Program-made: the position numbers and the translations under genes
Notes under the pieces: generated by a model
What the model saw: only the letters and a program-made list of their open reading frames with translations
Told to the model about the DNA's origin: nothing
Database searches by the model: none
NCBI GenBank assembly: GCA_015688915.1
Contig: JAATGX010000077.1
Span: 1-34,594, forward strand
From: Desulfuromonadales bacterium
GTDB taxonomy: Bacteria; Desulfobacterota; Desulfuromonadia; Geobacterales; Pseudopelobacteraceae
Length of the DNA stretch: 34,594 nt
Direction of reading: 5' to 3'
Shown: in pieces, positions 1,119-20,070 of the stretch
Layout: the number at the start of each line of letters is the position of its first letter
Numbering within the stretch: the stretch's first letter is position 1

Positions 1119-1171
1119 TTGGCGTGCTGCAAAAACCTGACCGGACACCGCTGCCCCTGACCGAAAGGAAC

Positions 1172-2872
1172 ATGACCATGCCGCCTGAAACGAACATCAT
1201 GACACTTGAAAAATGCCCCACCGGCATCCGCGGGCTGGACGACATCACCAGTGGCGGGCTGCCGCGCGGGAGGACCACGCTGGTGTGCGGCGGCACGGGG
1301 TGCGGCAAGACGCTCCTGGCCCTGGAATTCATCGTCCGCGGCATCCGGGAATTCGACGAACCGGGGGTCTTCATGTCGTTCGAGGAGACCACCGAAGAGT
1401 TGGCCAGCAACGTCGCTTCCCTCGGCTTCGACCTGGAGGAGTTGATCCACGGCGGGAAACTGGCGATGGATTATGTCCACGTAGAGCGGTCCGAGATCGA
1501 GGAGACCGGCGAATACGACCTGGAAGGGCTCTTTGTGCGCCTTGACAGCATGATCGTGGAAACCGGCGCGAAGCGCGTCGGCATCGACTCGCTCGAGGCG
1601 CTCTTTGCCGGGCTCCCCAATGAGGCGATCCTGCGCGCCGAGCTGCGCCGGCTCTTCCGCTGGCTGAAAGACCGGGGGGTTACCACCGTCATCACCGGCG
1701 AACAGGGAAAAAACGAGCTTACCCGCTACGGCCTTGAGGAATACGTCAGCGACTGCGTGATCTTCCTGAACCATCGGGTGGTGAACCGGGTCGGAACGCG
1801 GCTGTTGCGGATCGTCAAGTACCGCGGCTCGTCCCACGGGACCAACGAATACCCGACCATGATCGACGAGCATGGCCTGAGCGTGCTTCCCATCAGTTCC
1901 CTGGGGTTCGACTACCCGGTCTCCACCGAGCGCGTCTCCACCGGCATCGACCGGCTGGACGCCATGCTGGGGGGCAAGGGCTATTACAGCGGCAGCAGCG
2001 TCCTGGTTTCCGGGACCGCGGGCACGGGAAAGAGCAGCCTGGCCGCCGCCTTTGCGGATGCCGCCTGCCGCCGGGGAGAGCGCTGCCTCTACGTCGCCTT
2101 CGAGGAGGCGCCGGCGCAGATCTGCCGTAACATGGCCTCCGTCGGTTTCGACCTGGACCAATGGACCGGGAAGGGGCTCCTGCGCTTTCACGCCGTGCGC
2201 TCCACGCTCTGCGGCCTGGAACAGCACCTGGGCAGCATGATAAAGCTCGCCAGGGAGTTCCGGCCCGCCGTCGTCGTCATCGACCCGGTCACCAACCTGT
2301 CGGCCGTCGGCAGTGCCGAAGAGACCAAGGCGATGCTGACGCAGGTGGTCGATTTCTGCAAAAACCAGAGCATCACGACCCTGTTCACCAGTCTCACCGA
2401 AGGGGGCGGCCCGCAGGAGCAGACCGATCCGGGGGTCTCGTCGCTGATGGACACCTGGGTGCTGCTGCGAAATACCGAGACCCCCTCGGGCGAGCGCAAC
2501 CGCCTGCTGTTCGTCCTCAAGAGCCGCGGCATGGCCCACTCCAGCCAGGTGCGCGAGTTCATGCTTTCCGACAAGGGGGTCCAGCTCACCGACGTGTACA
2601 TCGGCGCCGGAACGGTCCTGACCGGCTCGGCCCGGCTGATCCAGGAGGCGCAGGATGAGGCCGTGGCCGAGGCCCGGCACCGGGACGCCACGCGTCGCCA
2701 GCGTGACCTGGAGCAGGAAAAGGCGCAGGTCCAGGCCCGGATAGGGGCGTTGCAGCACAAGGCCGCACTGCTGGCGGAGGACCTGGATTCACTCACCGGC
2801 GACGAACGGAGCCGCCTGGAAACCGCCACCCGCAACCGCGCCGACCTGGCCAGCGCCCGCCAGGTCGATTGA
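1172..2872 (+). CDS. kaiC: KaiC-family double-RecA ATPase
   Basis: Two P-loops (GGTGCGKT and SGTAGTGKSS), EE catalytic pairs (SFEETTEEL, AFEEAPAQI), 'STGIDRLDAMLGG' linker and 'KSRGMAHSSQVREFMLSDKG' CII signature. ATG at 1172 has an AAAGGA RBS and is in frame with the longer 1124 ORF. Confidence 0.93.
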   Translation: MTMPPETNIMTLEKCPTGIRGLDDITSGGLPRGRTTLVCGGTGCGKTLLALEFIVRGIREFDEPGVFMSFEETTEELASNVASLGFDLEELIHGGKLAMDYVHVERSEIEETGEYDLEGLFVRLDSMIVETGAKRVGIDSLEALFAGLPNEAILRAELRRLFRWLKDRGVTTVITGEQGKNELTRYGLEEYVSDCVIFLNHRVVNRVGTRLLRIVKYRGSSHGTNEYPTMIDEHGLSVLPISSLGFDYPVSTERVSTGIDRLDAMLGGKGYYSGSSVLVSGTAGTGKSSLAAAFADAACRRGERCLYVAFEEAPAQICRNMASVGFDLDQWTGKGLLRFHAVRSTLCGLEQHLGSMIKLAREFRPAVVVIDPVTNLSAVGSAEETKAMLTQVVDFCKNQSITTLFTSLTEGGGPQEQTDPGVSSLMDTWVLLRNTETPSGERNRLLFVLKSRGMAHSSQVREFMLSDKGVQLTDVYIGAGTVLTGSARLIQEAQDEAVAEARHRDATRRQRDLEQEKAQVQARIGALQHKAALLAEDLDSLTGDERSRLETATRNRADLASARQVD

Positions 2873-2888
2873 GGGTAACCACTGATGA

Positions 2889-2946
2889 GCGCTGATCTTC
2901 CGCTACCAGCGCTCACGTGACAAGTCCCCCTTTGAAAAAGGGGGGG
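2889..2946. repeat. Partial second copy of the 166-302 element, inverted orientation
   Basis: Reverse complement of 2908-2946 matches 246-283 (ccccctttttcaaagg[a/g]ggacttgtcacgtgagcgct) almost perfectly; outer end gcgctgatcttccg is identical to 166-179. Confidence 0.65.
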
Positions 2947-2967
2947 AACGAATACAGGAGACCACGT

Positions 2968-3288
2968 ATGCCAAAAAAGACCAGACCAGACACCGTTCCC
3001 CCTTCCCAGACACCGGAATTCTGGCAGTTGAGGCTCTACGTGGCGGGCATGACCGCGCGCGCGGTCGCGGCCTTCGACAACCTGAAAAGGTTGTGCGAGG
3101 AGCATCTGGCCGGCTACTACGAGATCGAAATCATCGATCTGCTGGAAAACCCGAAACTCGCCGCCGGCGACCAGATTCTCGCCGTGCCGACCCTGGTGCG
3201 CAAGCTGCCACCTCCCATGAAAAAAATCATCGGCGATCTTTCCAACGAGGAGCGGGTCCTCGTTGGCCTGGACCTGCGGCCGCGGTGA
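2968..3288 (+). CDS. kaiB: KaiB-family protein (first copy)
   Basis: [72 protein letters not shown] is a full KaiB signature; RBS CAGGAG upstream of ATG 2968. Confidence 0.93.
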
Positions 3289-3305
3289 GCGAAAAGGAAC
3301 CTTCC

Positions 3306-3644
3306 ATGACAACGAAACGTGCCCAAACGGCGCTTGAGGCCCTGGAAGCCGCGAGCCGGGACATCGGGGGCCAGATCTATACCCTGCGACTCTATGTGGC
3401 CGGGCTCACCACGCGCTCCCAGGAGGCCATCCGCACCGTCACCACCATCTGCGAGGAACACCTGGCGGGCCGCTACAGCCTGGAGGTGATCGACATCTAC
3501 CAGCACCCGGTCCTGGCCAAGGGGGAGCAGATCATCGCCGCACCCACCCTGATCAAGAAACTGCCGCTCCCGTTGCGTAAGATCATCGGCAACATGGCTG
3601 ACAAGGACAAGGTCCTGGTCGGCCTGGATTTGAGGAGCAAGTAA
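3306..3644 (+). CDS. kaiB: KaiB-family protein (second copy)
   Basis: [71 protein letters not shown]; paralogue of the upstream gene; start at 3306 rather than the track's 3093. Confidence 0.93.
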
Positions 3645-3645
3645 C

Positions 3646-5523
3646 ATGAGCGTTACAGCGGACGAAGCACCGCGCACCACGCGGGAGTTGCTCGGGGAGA
3701 TCGAACGGCTCCGCGGCCGGCTCGACGAGGCCGACCAGACCCTTGACGCCATCCGCAGCGGCGACGTGGACGCCCTGGTAATGACCGGCCCCCAGGGAGA
3801 CCGCGTTTTCTCCCTCACCGGCGCCGAGCGGACGTACCGGCTCATCGTGGAGACCATGAACGAGGCAGCCCTGACGGTGGACCTGGACGGTACGATACTC
3901 TTCTGCAACCGGCGTTTTTGCGACCTGGTGAAGACCCCCATGTCGAACACCATCGGCAAAAAGCTGACCGCTTTTTTCGCGCCGGCCCAGCACCACGGGC
4001 TGCGGAGGCTCCTGGCCAAGGCCCAGGCCGGGCCCGTGCAACGGTGCCTCACCCTGCAGGCCGCCGGCGGCGCCGCGGTATCCACGCAGATCGCGGCCAG
4101 CCTGCTCACGGCCGACGATCTCACCAGCATCTGCCTGGTAGCCACGGACCTGACCGAACTGGAGGCGCAAGCCAACTCGATCCGCGTCATGCGCGAGCAA
4201 CAGCAGGCCCTGGAGGAAAGCCGGGCCGAACTGCAGACGGCCAACGCCCTGCTGAACGATTCCCGCCGGGCCGCCCTCAACATCATGGAAGACGCGGTCT
4301 CGGCGCGTCATGAAACCGAGGAGGCGAGCGCCAGCCTGCAACGCGAAATAGGGGAACGCATACAGGCCGAGGAGAAATTGCGGAAAGCCCACGACGAGTT
4401 GGAATTGCGGGTCTGGGAGCGGACGGGAGAGCTGGCCGGCGCAAACGCGCATCTCACGCAGGAAATAGAAGAGCGCAAAAAGGCTGAAGAATCGCTCAAG
4501 GGCGCGTATGCGGAAATAAAACGGCTGAAGGACCAACTCCAGGCGGAGAACACCTATCTGCAACAAGAGGTTGCCCAGCAGTACAACTTCGGCGAAGTCA
4601 TCGGGCAAAGTAGTGTCCTCTCGCACATCTTCCTGCGGGTCAAGCAGGTAGCGCCCATGACCGCGACCGTTCTGCTCCTTGGAGAGACCGGCACCGGCAA
4701 GGGCGTGATCGCCCGCGCCATCCACAGAAGCAGCACCCGCAAGGATCGGCCGCTGATAACGGTCAATTGTACGACCCTGCCCGCGTCCCTGGTGGAAAGC
4801 GAACTCTTCGGGCGGGAAAAGGGGGCGTTCACCGGATCGGATACCCAGCAGATCGGGCGCTTTGAACTGGCCAACGGCGGCACCATATTTCTCGACGAGA
4901 TCGGCGAGTTGCCGATGGAGTTGCAGTGCAAGCTGCTCCGGGTCATTCAGGACGGCGAGTTCGAGCGGCTGGGCAGTCCCCGCACCATAAAGATCGATGT
5001 GCGGATCATCGCGGCAACCAACCGGAATCTGGAAGAGGAGATCAAGAACGGCAGGTTCCGCGAAGATCTGTTTTACCGGCTCAATGTCTTCCCCATCACC
5101 ATGCCGCCACTCCGGGAACGCAAGGAAGACATCCCGCTGCTCGTTCAGCATTTCGTGGCCAAGTTCAACAAGAAAATCGGCAGGAATATCACGACCGTGT
5201 CAAAAGGCACCGTAAACATCCTGCAGGAATACCACTGGCCCGGCAACGTGCGGGAGCTGGAAAGTGTCATCGAGCGGGCGATAATCACCAGCCAGGGAAC
5301 CACACTCCAGGTATCCGACCGGCTGGATGCGCTCCGAAAGCCGGAGGAGCCGTCAGGGCAGAGCGTCAAGGCGCTTGCCGAGCTGGAGCACGACCACATT
5401 ATCCAGGTGCTCCAGAAAACCGGTTGGCGCATCGAGGGGAAAAACGGGGCCGCGGTAATCCTTGGCCTCAACGCCAGCACGCTGCGCGCCCGGATGCGGA
5501 AGTACGGCATCGTTCGCCACTGA
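3646..5523 (+). CDS. PAS-domain sigma54-dependent transcriptional activator (AAA+, Fis-type HTH)
   Basis: PAS-like N-terminus, coiled coil, AAA+ with [14 protein letters not shown] loop, '[13 protein letters not shown]', '[18 protein letters not shown]' and a C-terminal '[21 protein letters not shown]' HTH. No receiver domain seen. ATG lies 1 nt after the kaiB2 stop. Confidence 0.92.
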
Positions 5524-5573: not shown

Positions 5574-5609
5574 TCCGTCATATATGGCGGTTATGTCAAA
5601 CATGACGGA
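5574..5609. promoter_or_regulatory. Candidate activator-binding site (UAS) upstream of the radical SAM gene
   Basis: tccgtcatatatggcggttatgtcaaacatgacgga: 8-bp inverted arms TCCGTCAT/ATGACGGA; highly similar to 7354-7389 upstream of the other sigma54 promoter. Confidence 0.6.
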
Positions 5610-5705
5610 TTCCGTGGATAATGTTCCCTCCACCCGGCCCTCCCCACGCATCTTTATACCCTTCACGATCAACCGGTTGTACGTTCAGCATCCGCGCATC
5701 CTCTC

Positions 5706-5721
5706 CGGCACGTTAGTTGCG
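5706..5721 (+). promoter_or_regulatory. Sigma54 (-24/-12) promoter
   Basis: cGGCACGttagTTGCg, GG-N10-GC spacing, GG at 5707-5708 and GC at 5719-5720, ~80 bp upstream of the ATG at 5799. Confidence 0.8.
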
Positions 5722-5798
5722 ATTCGTTTTTTGCGGGAAACGCCACATAGGTTTGCCGCACGCAGGTTATGCCGTCATGGCGACAGGGGAGCATCCGC

Positions 5799-7322
5799 AT
5801 GAAGATCCTGCTTGTATATCCGCACTATCCCGACACCTTCTGGAGTTTCCGCCACGCCATGAAATTCATCGGCAGGAAGGCGAGCTTCCCGCCGCTGGGC
5901 CTTCTGACCGTGGCGGCCATGCTCCCGGCCGAATGGGAAAAGCGGCTCGTGGATATGAATGTCCGCCCCCTCACCGATGATGACCTGAGGTGGTCGGATT
6001 ATGTCTTTATCAGCGCCATGGCCATCCAGCGCGAATCGGCGCAGGAGGTCATCGCACGCTGCCGGCGGCTGGGGGTCAGAATCGTTGCCGGAGGCCCCCT
6101 GTTTACCACGTACCACCAGGATTTCCCCGAAGTGGACCACGTGGTGACGGGCGAGGGGGAACTCACCCTGCCCCGGTTTCTGGCCGACCTGGAAAACGGC
6201 GAGGCCCGGCATCTGTACACCGACGACCAACGGACCGACCTGGGGAACAGTCCGGTCCCGCTCTGGGAGTTGATCGATGTGAGCGCCTATGCCGCCATGA
6301 ACATCCAGTATTCACGGGGATGTCCCTTTGACTGCGAGTTCTGCGACATAACGGTATTGTTCGGGCGCACGCCGCGCACCAAGGGGCTCGCGCAACTGAC
6401 GGCGGAGCTGGAGAGCCTGTATGTGCGGGGATGGCGCGGCGCGATCTTCTTTGTTGACGACAACTTCATCGGCGACCGGGGAAAGCTGAAGCGGGAGGTT
6501 CTTCCCGGCATTATCGACTGGATGGAGAAACGGGGGCGCCCGTTCTACTTTTACACCGAGGCGTCCATCGATCTGGCCGACGACGGCAGCCTCATGGAAC
6601 TGATGGTCAGGGCCGGATTCGAAGAGGTCTTTATCGGCATCGAGACCCCGCACGAGGACGGCCATGCGGAAAGCGGCAAGGTGCAGAACAGGAACCGGGA
6701 CCTGCTGGCCTCGGTAAAGGGCATCCAGCGGGCGGGCCTGCAGGTGCACGGGGGATTCATCGTGGGCTTCGACAGCGACCCGCCGGCGATCTTCGATCGG
6801 CAGATCCGTTTTATCCAGGAGAGCGGCATCGTCACCGCCATGGTCGGGGTACTTTCCGCCATGCGCGGCACCCGGCTGTACCAGCGCCTGGAGCGGGAAG
6901 GGAGACTGCTCGGGGAAGGCTCCGGCAGCAATACGATCATGGACCTCAACTTCGTCCCCCGAATGGAGCAGACAACGCTCATCGGTGGTTACCGGACCAT
7001 CCTCGACACCATCTACTCACCCAAAAACTACTATAGGCGGGTGATCCGCCTCCTCAGGGAGTACCGGCCGCTGCACCTGGGAAAATTCCACCTCCAGCCG
7101 GGATACGTGGGTGCGCTCTTCAAATCGATCCTGTTCCTGGGGATTCTGGGCAAGGAGAGAGTGCACTTCTGGAATCTCTTCTTCTGGTCTCTCACACGGC
7201 GGCCGCGGCTCTTCCCCCTGGCCATAACCTATGCCGTCTACGGGTTCCACTTCAGAACGGTCGCGGAAAAGATCGACTGGATCGGGATAGGCCCCGGCGA
7301 CGGGGTCATAAAACCGTCCTGA
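5799..7322 (+). CDS. B12-binding-domain radical SAM protein (DUF4070/HpnP-like group)
   Basis: MKILLVYPHYPDTFWSF...FPPLGLLTVAAMLP cobalamin-binding-type N-terminus; CPFDCEFCDI is the CxxxCxxC radical SAM cluster motif; 'GGPLFTTY', 'VTGEGE' motifs. Confidence 0.87.
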   Translation: MKILLVYPHYPDTFWSFRHAMKFIGRKASFPPLGLLTVAAMLPAEWEKRLVDMNVRPLTDDDLRWSDYVFISAMAIQRESAQEVIARCRRLGVRIVAGGPLFTTYHQDFPEVDHVVTGEGELTLPRFLADLENGEARHLYTDDQRTDLGNSPVPLWELIDVSAYAAMNIQYSRGCPFDCEFCDITVLFGRTPRTKGLAQLTAELESLYVRGWRGAIFFVDDNFIGDRGKLKREVLPGIIDWMEKRGRPFYFYTEASIDLADDGSLMELMVRAGFEEVFIGIETPHEDGHAESGKVQNRNRDLLASVKGIQRAGLQVHGGFIVGFDSDPPAIFDRQIRFIQESGIVTAMVGVLSAMRGTRLYQRLEREGRLLGEGSGSNTIMDLNFVPRMEQTTLIGGYRTILDTIYSPKNYYRRVIRLLREYRPLHLGKFHLQPGYVGALFKSILFLGILGKERVHFWNLFFWSLTRRPRLFPLAITYAVYGFHFRTVAEKIDWIGIGPGDGVIKPS

Positions 7323-7353
7323 CGCAGCCCCCCCATGCGCCTCGCCATGGTCG

Positions 7354-7389
7354 TCCACCATATATGGCAGTTATGTTAAACATGGCGGC
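7354..7389. promoter_or_regulatory. Candidate activator-binding site (UAS), second copy
   Basis: tccaccatatatggcagttatgttaaacatggcggc aligns without gaps to 5574-5609 and sits ~124 bp before the -24 element, versus ~126 bp for copy 1. Confidence 0.6.
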
Positions 7390-7483
7390 TTCCGTTGACG
7401 CCTTTCCTTCCACCGGGCCTGTAGCATTTTAAATTTATCCATACAATCAAGATGTTACCACCTCATCATCCGCAGCCATCCTC

Positions 7484-7499
7484 TGGCACGTTAGTTGCG
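7484..7499 (+). promoter_or_regulatory. Sigma54 (-24/-12) promoter
   Basis: TGGCACGttagTTGCg; GG 7485-7486 and GC 7497-7498; same GGCACGTTAGTTGCG core as the promoter at 5706. Confidence 0.83.
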
Positions 7500-7578: not shown

Positions 7579-8166
7579 ATGAATATACCCGACATCATTA
7601 TGGATATCCAGACGCTGGGCCGCTTCGGCATGTTTGTCGATGGCAAACCCGTGGTCACCCAGTGGCCGAATGAAACGGTAAAGGTGTTTTTCTGTTCCCT
7701 GCTTTCGCCGCTGGACATCTATTTCACCTGGGACCGGATCTGCCGCTCCCTGTGGGGTGTGGCGGTGACACCGGCCAACAGGCGGCGACTGGAGGAGACC
7801 TGTATCCGCCCTCTTATCGGCTTCCTGCTCGAAGAACTGGGCTTCAACCCCATCCTCGTGGGACTCGATGGCATAAGAATCGACCATCAGCGCATCCATG
7901 TGGATGCCCTGGAGTTTCACGACACCGTCATAGAAGGACTCAGACTGTTGTCCCTCGGCAACCATGCCGCGGCGCTCGTGCAATTCAGCAGGGCCAACGC
8001 ACTCTATGTCGGCAAGTATCTGCCGGGAATGCCGGGGAAGATCATCGAAAGTACACGCAATGAGCTCGAGGCCCTGTACCGGACCAACTGCGGTCAGGGA
8101 CGCCATGCCGCTCATACGGCATTCCGGCTGTTCGGACTGCAACCCAAGGGCAGTACGCCGGCGTGA
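7579..8166 (+). CDS. Short SARP/BTAD-like protein (winged-helix plus bacterial transcriptional activator domain)
   Basis: IQTLGRFGMFVDGKPVVTQWPNETVKVFFCSLLSP..ICRSLW resembles the SARP DNA-binding region; IDHQRIHVDALEFHDTVIEGLRLLSLGNHAAALVQFSRANALYVGKYLPGMPG resembles BTAD. RBS GGAG before ATG 7579. Confidence 0.65.
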   Translation: MNIPDIIMDIQTLGRFGMFVDGKPVVTQWPNETVKVFFCSLLSPLDIYFTWDRICRSLWGVAVTPANRRRLEETCIRPLIGFLLEELGFNPILVGLDGIRIDHQRIHVDALEFHDTVIEGLRLLSLGNHAAALVQFSRANALYVGKYLPGMPGKIIESTRNELEALYRTNCGQGRHAAHTAFRLFGLQPKGSTPA

Positions 8167-8430: not shown

Positions 8431-8610
8431 ATGAAATCAAGTACAAAGGACCGGGTGGAAGGGGCATTTCACGAAGTCAAGGGCGCGGTTAGGGAGTCAG
8501 CCGGAAAACTAAGCAATAATCCGACGCTGGAGGCAAAAGGTATCGGTGAAAAAATAGCCGGCAAAGTCCAGGAAAAGATTGGTCAGTTCAAGAAGCTCCT
8601 GGGGAAATAG
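8431..8610 (+). CDS. CsbD-like stress-response protein (59 aa)
   Basis: MKSSTKDRVEGAFHEVKGAVRESAGKLSNNPTLEAKGIGEKIAGKVQEKIGQFKKLLGK; good RBS (AAAGGAG); below the ORF-track length cutoff. Confidence 0.88.
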   Translation: MKSSTKDRVEGAFHEVKGAVRESAGKLSNNPTLEAKGIGEKIAGKVQEKIGQFKKLLGK

Positions 8611-13961: not shown

Positions 13962-15431
13962 CTAGGGGGCTTTGAAGAGGTGTTTGCTTATGTTGAGGGA
14001 TTTGATTTTCGACTCAAGAGTCGAGGGTGGAATCCCGAGCTTTGCGGCCGCTCCCAGCGGTCCGGACACCCGGCCCCTGCATTCCGCCAGGGCCGCCTCG
14101 ATCAGACCCTTTTCCTGGGTCACCAGTTTGTCGGCGAACCGCATGTTCGCCGGCTGGGTTTGGCCGGGCCCCGGAATGAGCCAACTCCCGTCGACCGCAA
14201 AGTCCCCTGAGTCGCAGAGGATCACCGACCGTTCAATCACATTCTGCAACTCCCGGATATTGCCCGGCCAGTGGTATGCCCGGAGCAGCTCCAGGCTCTT
14301 CTTGCCGGTATTTCGTATTTTCTTTCCCAGCTTGGAGGCGTATCGGTCAACAAAGTATTCGACCAGCATGGGGATGTCTTCTTTTCGTTCCCGAAGAGAA
14401 GGCATGTGGATGGGAAACACGTTGAGCCGGTAGAACAGGTCGATTCGAAAGGTTCCGCCAGTGATGGCATCGCTCAAGTCACGGTTGGTGGCGGCGATCA
14501 CCCGCACATTGGTCCGAATCGTTTTATGGCCTCCCACACGCTCCAGTTCGTTTTCCTGCAGAACGCGCAGGAGAACGGCCTGGGTTTCAAGCGGAAGTTC
14601 CCCGATCTCATCCAGGAAGATTGTCCCTCCTTCGGCCAGTTCAAAGCGCCCGAGGCGCCGCTGGTGGGCCCCCGTGAAGGCTCCCTTCTCATGGCCGAAT
14701 AATTCCGAGGCTATCAACGACGCGGGGATTGCCGCGCAATTGATGCTGACAAAGGCACGTGAGGCCCGCCTGGATCGTTTGTGGATCGCCCGGGCGACGA
14801 GCTCCTTCCCCGTGCCGGTTTCACCGGTGATGAAGACCGTGGAATCGGTCGGCGCGACCTTGGTGACATGCGCAAGCACGGCTTTCAGTACCGGCGAGGC
14901 GCCCACGATCTCCTCGAACATCGATACCTTGCTGATTTCTTCCCGTAGCGAAATGTTCTCTTTGTACAGACGGTCTCTCAATTTCTTGACCGAGTCGAGC
15001 GTCCGGCGGAGACGATCTTCAGTATGCTTCATGTCCTCGATGTCGACGAGCGTCCCATACCACTTGACTATGTTTCCCTGTTCGTCGCGCAGCGGCACGG
15101 TGCGGCCCAGGATCCACCGGTATTCGCCGTTGGCCTGCCGAACGCGCAGTGTTTGCTCTACCGGTTCCCCATCAGCCAGGGCCGTCCGCCATTTTCCCAC
15201 AACCCGTGCCAGGTCTTCGGGATGGACTACGGTCATCCACCCCCAGTTCAGCCATTGCTCCCTCGAAAGACCCATATAATGCAACCAGCTTGGAGTGACA
15301 AAATCAACGGAACCGTCAGGGAGGGCGGTCGCGATGAAGGCGGGAATCGTCTCGATGATGGCGCGAAGCTCATCTTCGTGGTGCCGGATCCTGTCTTCGG
15401 CCTCAATAGTTACAAGCGAGGTGTTTTCCAT
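13962..15431 (-). CDS. PAS-domain sigma54-dependent transcriptional activator
   Basis: PAS (IPAFIATALPDGSVDFVTPSWLHYMGLSREQWLNWGW), AAA+ with GETGTGKE, canonical GAFTGA, 'YHWPGNIRELQNVIERSV', C-terminal Fis-type HTH. Start taken as MENTSLV; an upstream in-frame start at 15512 would add a hydrophobic segment. Confidence 0.9.
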   Translation of the reverse strand: MENTSLVTIEAEDRIRHHEDELRAIIETIPAFIATALPDGSVDFVTPSWLHYMGLSREQWLNWGWMTVVHPEDLARVVGKWRTALADGEPVEQTLRVRQANGEYRWILGRTVPLRDEQGNIVKWYGTLVDIEDMKHTEDRLRRTLDSVKKLRDRLYKENISLREEISKVSMFEEIVGASPVLKAVLAHVTKVAPTDSTVFITGETGTGKELVARAIHKRSRRASRAFVSINCAAIPASLIASELFGHEKGAFTGAHQRRLGRFELAEGGTIFLDEIGELPLETQAVLLRVLQENELERVGGHKTIRTNVRVIAATNRDLSDAITGGTFRIDLFYRLNVFPIHMPSLRERKEDIPMLVEYFVDRYASKLGKKIRNTGKKSLELLRAYHWPGNIRELQNVIERSVILCDSGDFAVDGSWLIPGPGQTQPANMRFADKLVTQEKGLIEAALAECRGRVSGPLGAAAKLGIPPSTLESKIKSLNISKHLFKAP

Positions 15432-15537
15432 GGTGTCCACTGTGTAGAGATATTTTCCGCCGAATATTCCTTTAGCCAGTAGCATGCCAAAAATAAACGT
15501 AATTAATATCAATATGATGTAAATAATGTCAAAATTT

Positions 15538-15644: not shown

Positions 15645-17180
15645 ATGATAGACAAGAACGTATTCTTCAGGGAGGTGACGATCAGAATATGCAGCAGTCT
15701 TCAGATAAAGACCGCTCTTGGCAGTGCATTTGAGTATTTACGGCGCCATATGCCGTTGGACATTCTCAGTCTCATCATTCGTGACACCAAACTTGCCGCT
15801 CTGAGGAAAATCGCCCAGGTAGCGGGCGATAAAGCGGAACTTACCAACGAAATCATTGCGCTTCCTGAGGACCTTTGGGCAAAGGTGCGATCGTGGGAAA
15901 TTCGTGTTCCCACCATTATGGGGTCTGACCGGGATGAAGTAATTCGGGGATTGGCCCCCCATATCGAGCTCGACGAAAACTCGATAATCCTCATACCGCT
16001 CTGGGTCGGAAACGAGTTTCTGGGCGGGTTGACGCTTCGCGCATGGGGCAAGGGGATGTATAATTCTTCCCATGTCGACCTTCTGAGCGCCGCAACCGAG
16101 CCCTTTGCCATTGCCCTGGCCAATGCCCTGGCCCATGAAAGCCTTCTTAACTACAGGGATATTCTGTTAGACGACAACCGGTTTCTGAACAAGGAGCTCT
16201 CTTCCCAGGCAGGGGACGAGATTATTGGCGGGAATTCGGGATTGCGCAACGTGATGGAGATGGTTCGGCAGGTGGCGCCGCTGACGAACTCGGTGCTGCT
16301 TTTGGGGGAAACGGGGACGGGCAAGGAAGTGATCGCCAATATGATTCATTTCGCCTCTCCCCGCAAGGACGGGCCTTTCATCAAGGTAAATTGCGGTTCG
16401 ATTCCGGAAAGCCTCATGGACAGCGAGCTGTTCGGTCACGAAAAGGGAGCGTTTACCGGAGCAGTCACCGAGAAACGCGGCCGATTCGAACGGGCTGACG
16501 GCGGGACCATCTTTCTGGACGAGATTGGCGAACTGCCTCCCCAGGCCCAGGTTCGTCTGCTACGGGTACTCCAACATCGTGAAATCGAACGGGTCGGCGG
16601 CAGCAGAGCGATTCCATTGAATATCAGGGTGATTGCCGCCACCCACCGCAACCTGGAAAGCATGGTTTTGGAAAACCGGTTCCGCGAAGATCTCTGGTTT
16701 CGATTGAATGTTTTCCCTATCATTATTCCCCCGCTCCGGCAACGGAAAGAGGATATCCCGGCCCTGACCCGCCATTTTATCGCGCGAAAAAGCATGGAGT
16801 TGGGAATTGTATCGCCGCCCGCCATTGCTCCGGGCGCCCTGCAACGCCTCATGAACTATGCCTGGCCCGGTAATGTCCGTGAGGTGGAGAACCTGGTCGA
16901 AAGGGAGTTGATACGGCACCGGAGCGGGCAACTGCTATTCGATTCCGTGCTTCCTGCCGACCATGATAGTAAAGCCATTGATCCCGGGGAGGATAGCAGC
17001 CTGCCAGCCCCACTGAAACTCGACGAATTAATGGCCTTGCACATCAGTAGCGTTCTGAAAATGACCAAGGGAAAGATTCACGGGCCGGGTGGCGCAGCCG
17101 AATTGCTCGGCTTGGAGCCGAATACCCTGCGGGCACGTATGGACAAGCTTGGCATTCATTACCGTCGCAAACGTAAGTGA
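15645..17180 (+). CDS. GAF-domain sigma54-dependent transcriptional activator (FhlA/NorR-like architecture)
   Basis: GAF-like N-terminus, AAA+ with GETGTGKE, GAFTGA, '[25 protein letters not shown]', 'YAWPGNVREVENLVERELI', C-terminal HTH 'AAELLGLEPNTLRARMDKLGI'. Confidence 0.92.
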   Translation: MIDKNVFFREVTIRICSSLQIKTALGSAFEYLRRHMPLDILSLIIRDTKLAALRKIAQVAGDKAELTNEIIALPEDLWAKVRSWEIRVPTIMGSDRDEVIRGLAPHIELDENSIILIPLWVGNEFLGGLTLRAWGKGMYNSSHVDLLSAATEPFAIALANALAHESLLNYRDILLDDNRFLNKELSSQAGDEIIGGNSGLRNVMEMVRQVAPLTNSVLLLGETGTGKEVIANMIHFASPRKDGPFIKVNCGSIPESLMDSELFGHEKGAFTGAVTEKRGRFERADGGTIFLDEIGELPPQAQVRLLRVLQHREIERVGGSRAIPLNIRVIAATHRNLESMVLENRFREDLWFRLNVFPIIIPPLRQRKEDIPALTRHFIARKSMELGIVSPPAIAPGALQRLMNYAWPGNVREVENLVERELIRHRSGQLLFDSVLPADHDSKAIDPGEDSSLPAPLKLDELMALHISSVLKMTKGKIHGPGGAAELLGLEPNTLRARMDKLGIHYRRKRK

Positions 17181-19779: not shown

Positions 19780-20070
19780 ATGACCCGATCAGATCTGGCG
19801 GAACGTCTTGCGAAGGAGCAGGGGATCGCTTATGCAATTGCAGAGGAGATTGTTCGAACCATCTTCGGCCACATGACAGAAACATTGATTGCCGGAGGAA
19901 GGATCGAGATTCGTGGTTTTGGAAGTTTCGAGGCGAGGGAATATGAGGGACGGAGCGGCAGAAACCCCAAAACCGGCCAGTTGGTAATGGTTAAACCCAA
20001 AAAGTCCCCTTTCTTCAAGACCGGCAAAGAACTAAAGGAACGTATCATGGTCGGAAACGGCAAAGGATAG
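19780..20070 (+). CDS. HU/IHF-family DNA-binding protein
   Basis: MTRSDLAERLAKEQGIAYAIAEEIVRTIFGHMTETLIAGGRIEIRGFGSFEAREYEGRSGRNPKTGQLVMVKPKKSPFFKTGKELKERI. Confidence 0.93.
   Translation: MTRSDLAERLAKEQGIAYAIAEEIVRTIFGHMTETLIAGGRIEIRGFGSFEAREYEGRSGRNPKTGQLVMVKPKKSPFFKTGKELKERIMVGNGKG

Follow-up and report, generated by a model that had tools for sequence, protein, structure and literature searches.

A 34,594-nucleotide contig of a Desulfuromonadales bacterium (JAATGX010000077.1; the window hereafter, meaning this whole stretch of DNA) carries two neighbouring genes, one for a radical SAM protein and one for a small SARP-like regulator, that are each preceded by a sigma54-type promoter and a similar upstream dyad. 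The first-pass annotation of the locus considered both that one activator controls the two genes and that the promoter region had been duplicated. We asked what the shared layout signifies, which protein might act on it and which genes it serves.

Architecture of the two window promoters

The two sigma54 promoters with their common dyad, as first annotated, are indeed present: the 26-mer core CATATATGGCRGTTATGTYAAACATG occurs at 5579-5604 and again at 7359-7384, with 0 occurrences expected from dinucleotide shuffles of the window. Each copy belongs to a composite promoter in which a 36-bp element, TCCGTCATAT-N16-ATATGACGGA, is followed by an IHF-type site, placed 39-41 bp ahead of the -24 GG, and by a sigma54 -24/-12 promoter close to consensus (Table 1). 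The outer arms of the pseudo-palindromic element comprise 10 bp each. Counted from where the element begins (5574, 7354), the -24 GG lies 133 and 131 bp away, and the 124-126 bp originally given between dyad and -24 is about right if measured from the CAT. Alignment of the two window regions gave an ungapped block starting from the dyad, a short second match before the promoter and then the promoter itself.

Table 1. Coordinates of the features discussed in the window.
Feature	Position	Strand	Basis or remark
KaiC, upstream in the activator gene cluster	1124..2872	+	Pfam 1.4e-108
KaiB copy 1	2917..3288	+	Pfam 2.3e-25
KaiB copy 2, domain ~3387-3629	3093..3644	+	Pfam 8.5e-23
Sigma54 EBP: PAS sensor, coiled coil, AAA+ with GAFTGS loop, HTH_8; proposed activator	3646..5523	+	Pfam
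Upstream activating element 1, 36-bp pseudo-palindrome	5574..5609	+	sequence, no covariation, PWM scan
IHF-like site 1, GATCAACCGGTTG	5667..5679	+	begins 40 bp before -24 GG
Sigma54 -24/-12 promoter 1, CGGCACGTTAGTTGC	5706..5720	+	
Target gene 1, B12-binding radical SAM protein with DUF4070	5799..7322	+	Pfam
Upstream activating element 2	7354..7389	+	sequence, PWM scan
IHF-like site 2, AATCAAGATGTTA	7445..7457	+	
Sigma54 -24/-12 promoter 2, TGGCACGTTAGTTGC	7484..7498	+	
Target gene 2, small SARP-like regulator, wHTH + short BTAD	7579..8166	+	
CsbD-like stress protein	8431..8610	+	Pfam PF05532 9e-16; same-strand element 950 bp upstream

The consensus of 78 sites reads TCCGTCATATATGGCAGTTATGTtAAAtATGACGGa, an accessory block tTGAcGG, the IHF-type WATCAANNNNTTR and then CTCTGGCaCGtTAGTTGCG. 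Across these sites the -24 GG and -12 GC are invariant and their flanks are strongly TGGCACG-N4-TTGC, which identifies the promoters as sigma54 type, and the placement of WATCAANNNNTTR between upstream element and promoter is that of an IHF-assisted promoter. The symmetry of the element, its fixed distance from -24/-12 and its sharing by putatively co-regulated genes characterize an upstream activating sequence. The conserved accessory TTGACGG block (profile columns 43-48) lies some 8 bp beyond the element as a repeat of the ATGACGG half-site and is degenerate in copy 1; it could be a third binding half-site.

The proposal that the differences between the two dyads are partly compensatory did not hold up. 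Of the two dyad positions that differ between the window copies, one is compensated, and over 40 distinct sites the arms show Watson-Crick matches as often as independence predicts at every variable arm position (27 matches observed versus 26.2 expected at positions 4/33, 28 versus 26.8 at positions 5/32). Without covariation, the symmetry fits protein contacts and not a structure preserved by compensation. A structured RNA was rejected because the arms do not covary, Rfam returned no credible match and, in addition, the element precedes the promoter.

Recurrence and spacing of the composite promoter

We screened the genome of origin (a MAG of 2.9 Mb in 311 contigs, 75% complete) and its relatives for the motif. 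The core pattern yielded 6 sites on 3 contigs in the own genome, all six with a sigma54 promoter about 125 bp downstream, or 130-133 bp when the distance to the -24 GG is counted from where the element begins, and the reversed pattern yielded 0. A sequence-only profile built from these six sites found 2 further sites, giving 8 in total, and one of the two fronts a second radical SAM/DUF4070 gene. Among 57 relatives, the core pattern is present in 18, with the reversed control at 0 everywhere, and profile matches are present in 35. The two window promoters belong to a larger class of sigma54 promoters of identical construction, of which a single Geobacter-like genome has as many as 43.

These data bear directly on a recent local duplication, by which the likeness would be shared descent without further regulatory meaning. 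The window pair itself looks the part, with a 66-nt match at 79% identity and partial similarity of the spacers, but the identical arrangement is found ahead of unrelated genes, on other contigs as well as in dozens of genomes throughout the order. Moreover, the spacers between anchors of the six own promoters share 42-44% identity, near the 28-33% expected from composition, while the four anchors are conserved. Genome-wide recurrence thus refutes duplication as a sufficient explanation, and we regard this origin as very improbable.

A PWM scan of 730 kb of DNA identified 121 elements, against 0 in the reversed sequence used as control. A strong sigma54 promoter lies within 300 bp of 107 of them, at 128-132 bp in 102 cases, at 120-122 bp in four and at 288 bp in one. 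The PWM was trained on sites from a model that includes the promoter, a circularity that only the promoter-blind pattern test avoids; in that test on the relatives, 25 of 28 elements have a strong sigma54 promoter 116-136 bp away, compared with 1 of 56 control windows. By the first-pass annotation, a dyad occurring at many sites unrelated to sigma54 promoters would have spoken against its reading, and both searches found the opposite.

An IHF match of at least 8/9 was present in 68 of 105 sites versus 3 of 105 in the control, and 67 of the 68 matches are located 39-41 bp before the GG. The four short-spacer promoters lie about one helical turn closer to the element, and in two short-spacer sites with a full IHF match the turn is missing on opposite sides of the IHF site. 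Fixed spacing together with one-turn shifts is what would be predicted if a looped activator had to stay on one face of the helix.

Multiple copies in a genome, some of them in clusters, might also be expected of a mobile element or repeat (MITE or REP-like) carrying a sigma54 promoter by chance. What recurs, however, is short anchors at fixed spacing with no continuous body and no terminal repeats, ahead of the same gene families in different genera, and presence of the element follows the EBP clade described below. Neither alignable full-length copies nor target-site duplications were seen among the sites read, and a mobile origin seems to us scarcely credible.

The candidate activator and its clade

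The protein encoded at 3646-5523, directly upstream of the first element, has a Sigma54_activat domain, the loop and a Fis-type HTH, which place it among the sigma54 EBPs (PF00158 7.6e-70, PF02954 1.1e-8, PAS_9 1e-7). Its GAFTGS loop is a one-residue variant of GAFTGA and is also the clade consensus. It is the sole close-clade member found in the own genome, in which an RpoN gene and IHF/HU-family genes were found as well; one HU/IHF-family DNA-binding protein, of nine in that genome, is encoded in the window at 19780-20070 (+). Two more sigma54 EBP genes of the window, divergently oriented at 13962-15512 (-) and 15645-17180 (+), fall outside the 3646 clade, their products showing 47-51% identity to the 3646 EBP in the AAA+ region.

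Close relatives of the EBP, with 63-83% identity over linker, AAA+ and HTH and then a gap down to about 57%, are encoded in 27 of the 57 genomes (own included). At least three sites were found in 24 of the 27 EBP-positive and in 1 of the 30 EBP-negative genomes (p=9e-12, uncorrected for the relatedness of these genomes, several of which are incomplete). Presence and absence alternate inside several genera, and site number correlates with EBP paralog number (rho 0.56). In a phylum sample of 396 genomes, drawn evenly, 8 have both, 1 has only the element, 2 have only the EBP and 385 have neither (p=3e-14); the EBPs of the two EBP-only genomes show 61-63% identity.

Gene order follows the same pattern. 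In public genome records, an element is positioned within 6 kb of the EBP gene at 13 of 19 loci with at least 71% identity versus none of 61 with at most 62%. As in the window, an element on the same strand starts no more than 200 bp past 16 of 37 EBP genes (14 genomes). The culturable isolate IMCC39146 also carries the EBP and the element (L158). Furthermore, the recognition helix reads N[AP]STLRARMRK in most of the clade versus KPTTLNSRMK[KR] in the next paralog group. The annotation had put forward this EBP as the activator, and the co-occurrence and adjacency of its clade make it the best candidate. Because its close relatives accompany the element from genome to genome, both window genes are very probably under the control of a single activator.

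Sites in genomes with no EBP found, namely G009 (2 strong sites) and G032 (7 sites, 83% complete), would suit another regulator that binds the element and is merely linked to the EBP clade, the EBP itself acting elsewhere. Against this stand the presence, copy number and position of the EBP clade, all of which follow the element, and the fact that sigma54 promoters require an EBP; we consider a separate regulator unlikely. Conversely, G018 and G050 encode a close EBP, yet have 0 profile matches.

AAA+ and HTH_8 domains are universal among the 26 clade members scanned; a receiver is present in 8 and PAS in at least 16. With PAS or receiver sensors on one AAA+/DNA-binding module, several signals can feed one regulon, and the paralogs may thereby converge on the same promoters. 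A clade-type EBP without a sensor domain was observed in G052 (L249:7429-8547, minus strand), where its gene follows an element of its own at a distance of 40 bp; judging from this arrangement, it might be a self-amplifying activator. EBP-element pairs also occur in two genomes outside the class (G291, C29:262976-263122; G335, C58:33669-33812), which suggests transfer of the whole module.

In the window, kaiC and then two kaiB genes (1124-3644) stand directly before the PAS-EBP gene. KaiB was found in only 13 of the 57 relatives (above cut-off in 11) and near the EBP in few, namely in the window, in G014 (C57) and more loosely in G034 (C13). With KaiB so rare and so seldom near the EBP, KaiBC was rejected as a general EBP partner, and the clock link is local.

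Target genes and the proposed regulon

First downstream genes were picked mechanically by ribosome-binding site and length, so that individual target assignments may be wrong. Recurrent or notable target families are BON/OsmY, CsbD, LTXXQ/Spy, YflT, Usp, DnaK, HPF/S30AE, DJ-1/PfpI, Cu/Zn and Fe SOD, AI-2E, Thivi_2564, glucan enzymes, PEP-CTERM, small SARP-like and radical SAM DUF4070 proteins. A same-strand element lies no more than 1.5 kb upstream of CsbD genes in 14 of the 23 EBP-positive versus none of the 7 EBP-negative genomes. The CsbD-like gene of the window probably forms one transcription unit with target gene 2 or is reached by readthrough from it.

The BTAD match of the SARP-like window protein is below the cut-off (E=0.0016), that of its G014 relative above it (5e-5), and the predicted structure of the window protein is of low confidence (pLDDT 50, pTM 0.39). 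Relatives with 50-57% identity are encoded behind the element in 4 other genomes. Relatives of the radical SAM/DUF4070 protein are also targets in G020, G038 and on the own contig C136, and the B12-binding radical SAM/DUF4070 family was noted as a recurrent regulon target across genera (window 5799-7322; L015; L105:3-251; L242:18030-19601). Just upstream of one regulon promoter, on the own contig C294, is an ORF of more than 2200 aa (L008:7211-13936, minus strand), cyclic beta-glucan synthase-like by eye, and ORFs of similar size occur downstream of sites in G013 and G034.

By gene content, diverse stress-protection genes behind one promoter type, the set reads as a general stress regulon, a label suggested by the gene families. 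Radical SAM, glucan-enzyme and PEP-CTERM targets are not obviously stress genes, and the regulon might instead serve surface, biofilm or exopolysaccharide remodelling, given targets that include PEP-CTERM proteins, outer-membrane proteins, glucan enzymes and the very large cyclic-glucan-synthase-like ORFs. A comparative study argues, going by its title, for sigma54 as central control of the bacterial exterior (PMC3162934). The targets that keep recurring are nevertheless CsbD, BON/OsmY, YflT, SOD, DnaK, HPF, DJ-1 and Usp, and we hold a surface function to be the less probable one, with an appreciable chance of being right.

We thus favour stress protection as the output and conclude, with good confidence, that both window promoters belong to a multi-promoter sigma54 regulon run by the EBP clade with IHF. 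In the proposed mechanism, a clade EBP (3646-5523 in the window) would bind the 36-bp element, probably as more than one dimer, IHF would bend the spacer at its own site, 40 bp ahead of the -24, and the AAA+ domain of the EBP would contact and remodel sigma54-RNA polymerase at -24/-12, with the spacing held to one helical face. The output would be a stress-protection set of CsbD, BON/OsmY, YflT, Spy-like, Usp, SOD, DnaK, HPF, DJ-1 and other proteins; in the window, it would be the radical SAM enzyme and the small SARP-like regulator, then CsbD, with the SARP-like target adding a second regulatory tier.

More tentatively, and with slightly less than even confidence, we propose that sigma54 underlies a general stress response of Geobacter-like bacteria, in which up to about 40 promoters with one enhancer would be served by activators with common DNA-binding and AAA+ domains, interchangeable sensors and converging inputs, possibly a KaiBC-linked one among them in the own genome, alongside an RpoS-like sigma. 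Replacement of RpoS was rejected because nearly all relatives possess an RpoS-like sigma; the sigma54 system is therefore additional.

NifA/NtrC-type promoters combine an activator site about 100-150 bp upstream, an IHF site in between, -24/-12 and an AAA+ activator. The present system shares this layout and is of the IHF-assisted EBP/sigma54 type by every testable feature. It differs from NifA/NtrC-type systems in its distinct 36-bp element, its stress-type targets, the recurrent EBP-then-element gene order and a spacing that hardly varies over as many as 43 promoters in one genome. As a rule, sigma54 regulons are small, with one activator that has one sensor, and general stress genes are normally under sigmaS, sigmaB or EcfG. 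The target families overlap with those of the latter responses (CsbD, OsmY/BON, YflT), whereas the promoters here are of sigma54 type. Its unusual features are the stress-type target genes, the size, the rigid geometry and the sensor-swapped activator clade.

In Desulfovibrio vulgaris, the sigma54 regulome includes EBPs assigned to stress responses, e.g. DVU3305 and DVU3381, and the predicted DVU2894 repeat GTCA-N6-TGAC has half-sites resembling GTCAT/ATGRC of the present element (PMC4641369). The stress regulons there comprise one or few operons each, and the available part of that work describes no 36-bp composite element or multi-sensor clade (PMC4641369). Geobacter sulfurreducens has a large RpoN regulon, for which the accessible text reports no such enhancer element or stress EBP regulon (PMC2725144). 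A search of openly accessible literature found no paper joining sigma54, Geobacter and such a stress regulon, and a sigma54/IHF-dependent stress regulon seems to be previously undescribed.

In G. sulfurreducens, stress genes without an identified RpoN element were induced when RpoN was over-expressed (PMC2725144), and the regulon proposed here could explain such a response without a recognised promoter. The profile is ready for annotating the regulon in any such genome, and a candidate activator is named. A rigid-geometry enhancer marks a stress-type regulon of up to 43 promoters in a bacterial order that matters for metal reduction and subsurface chemistry.
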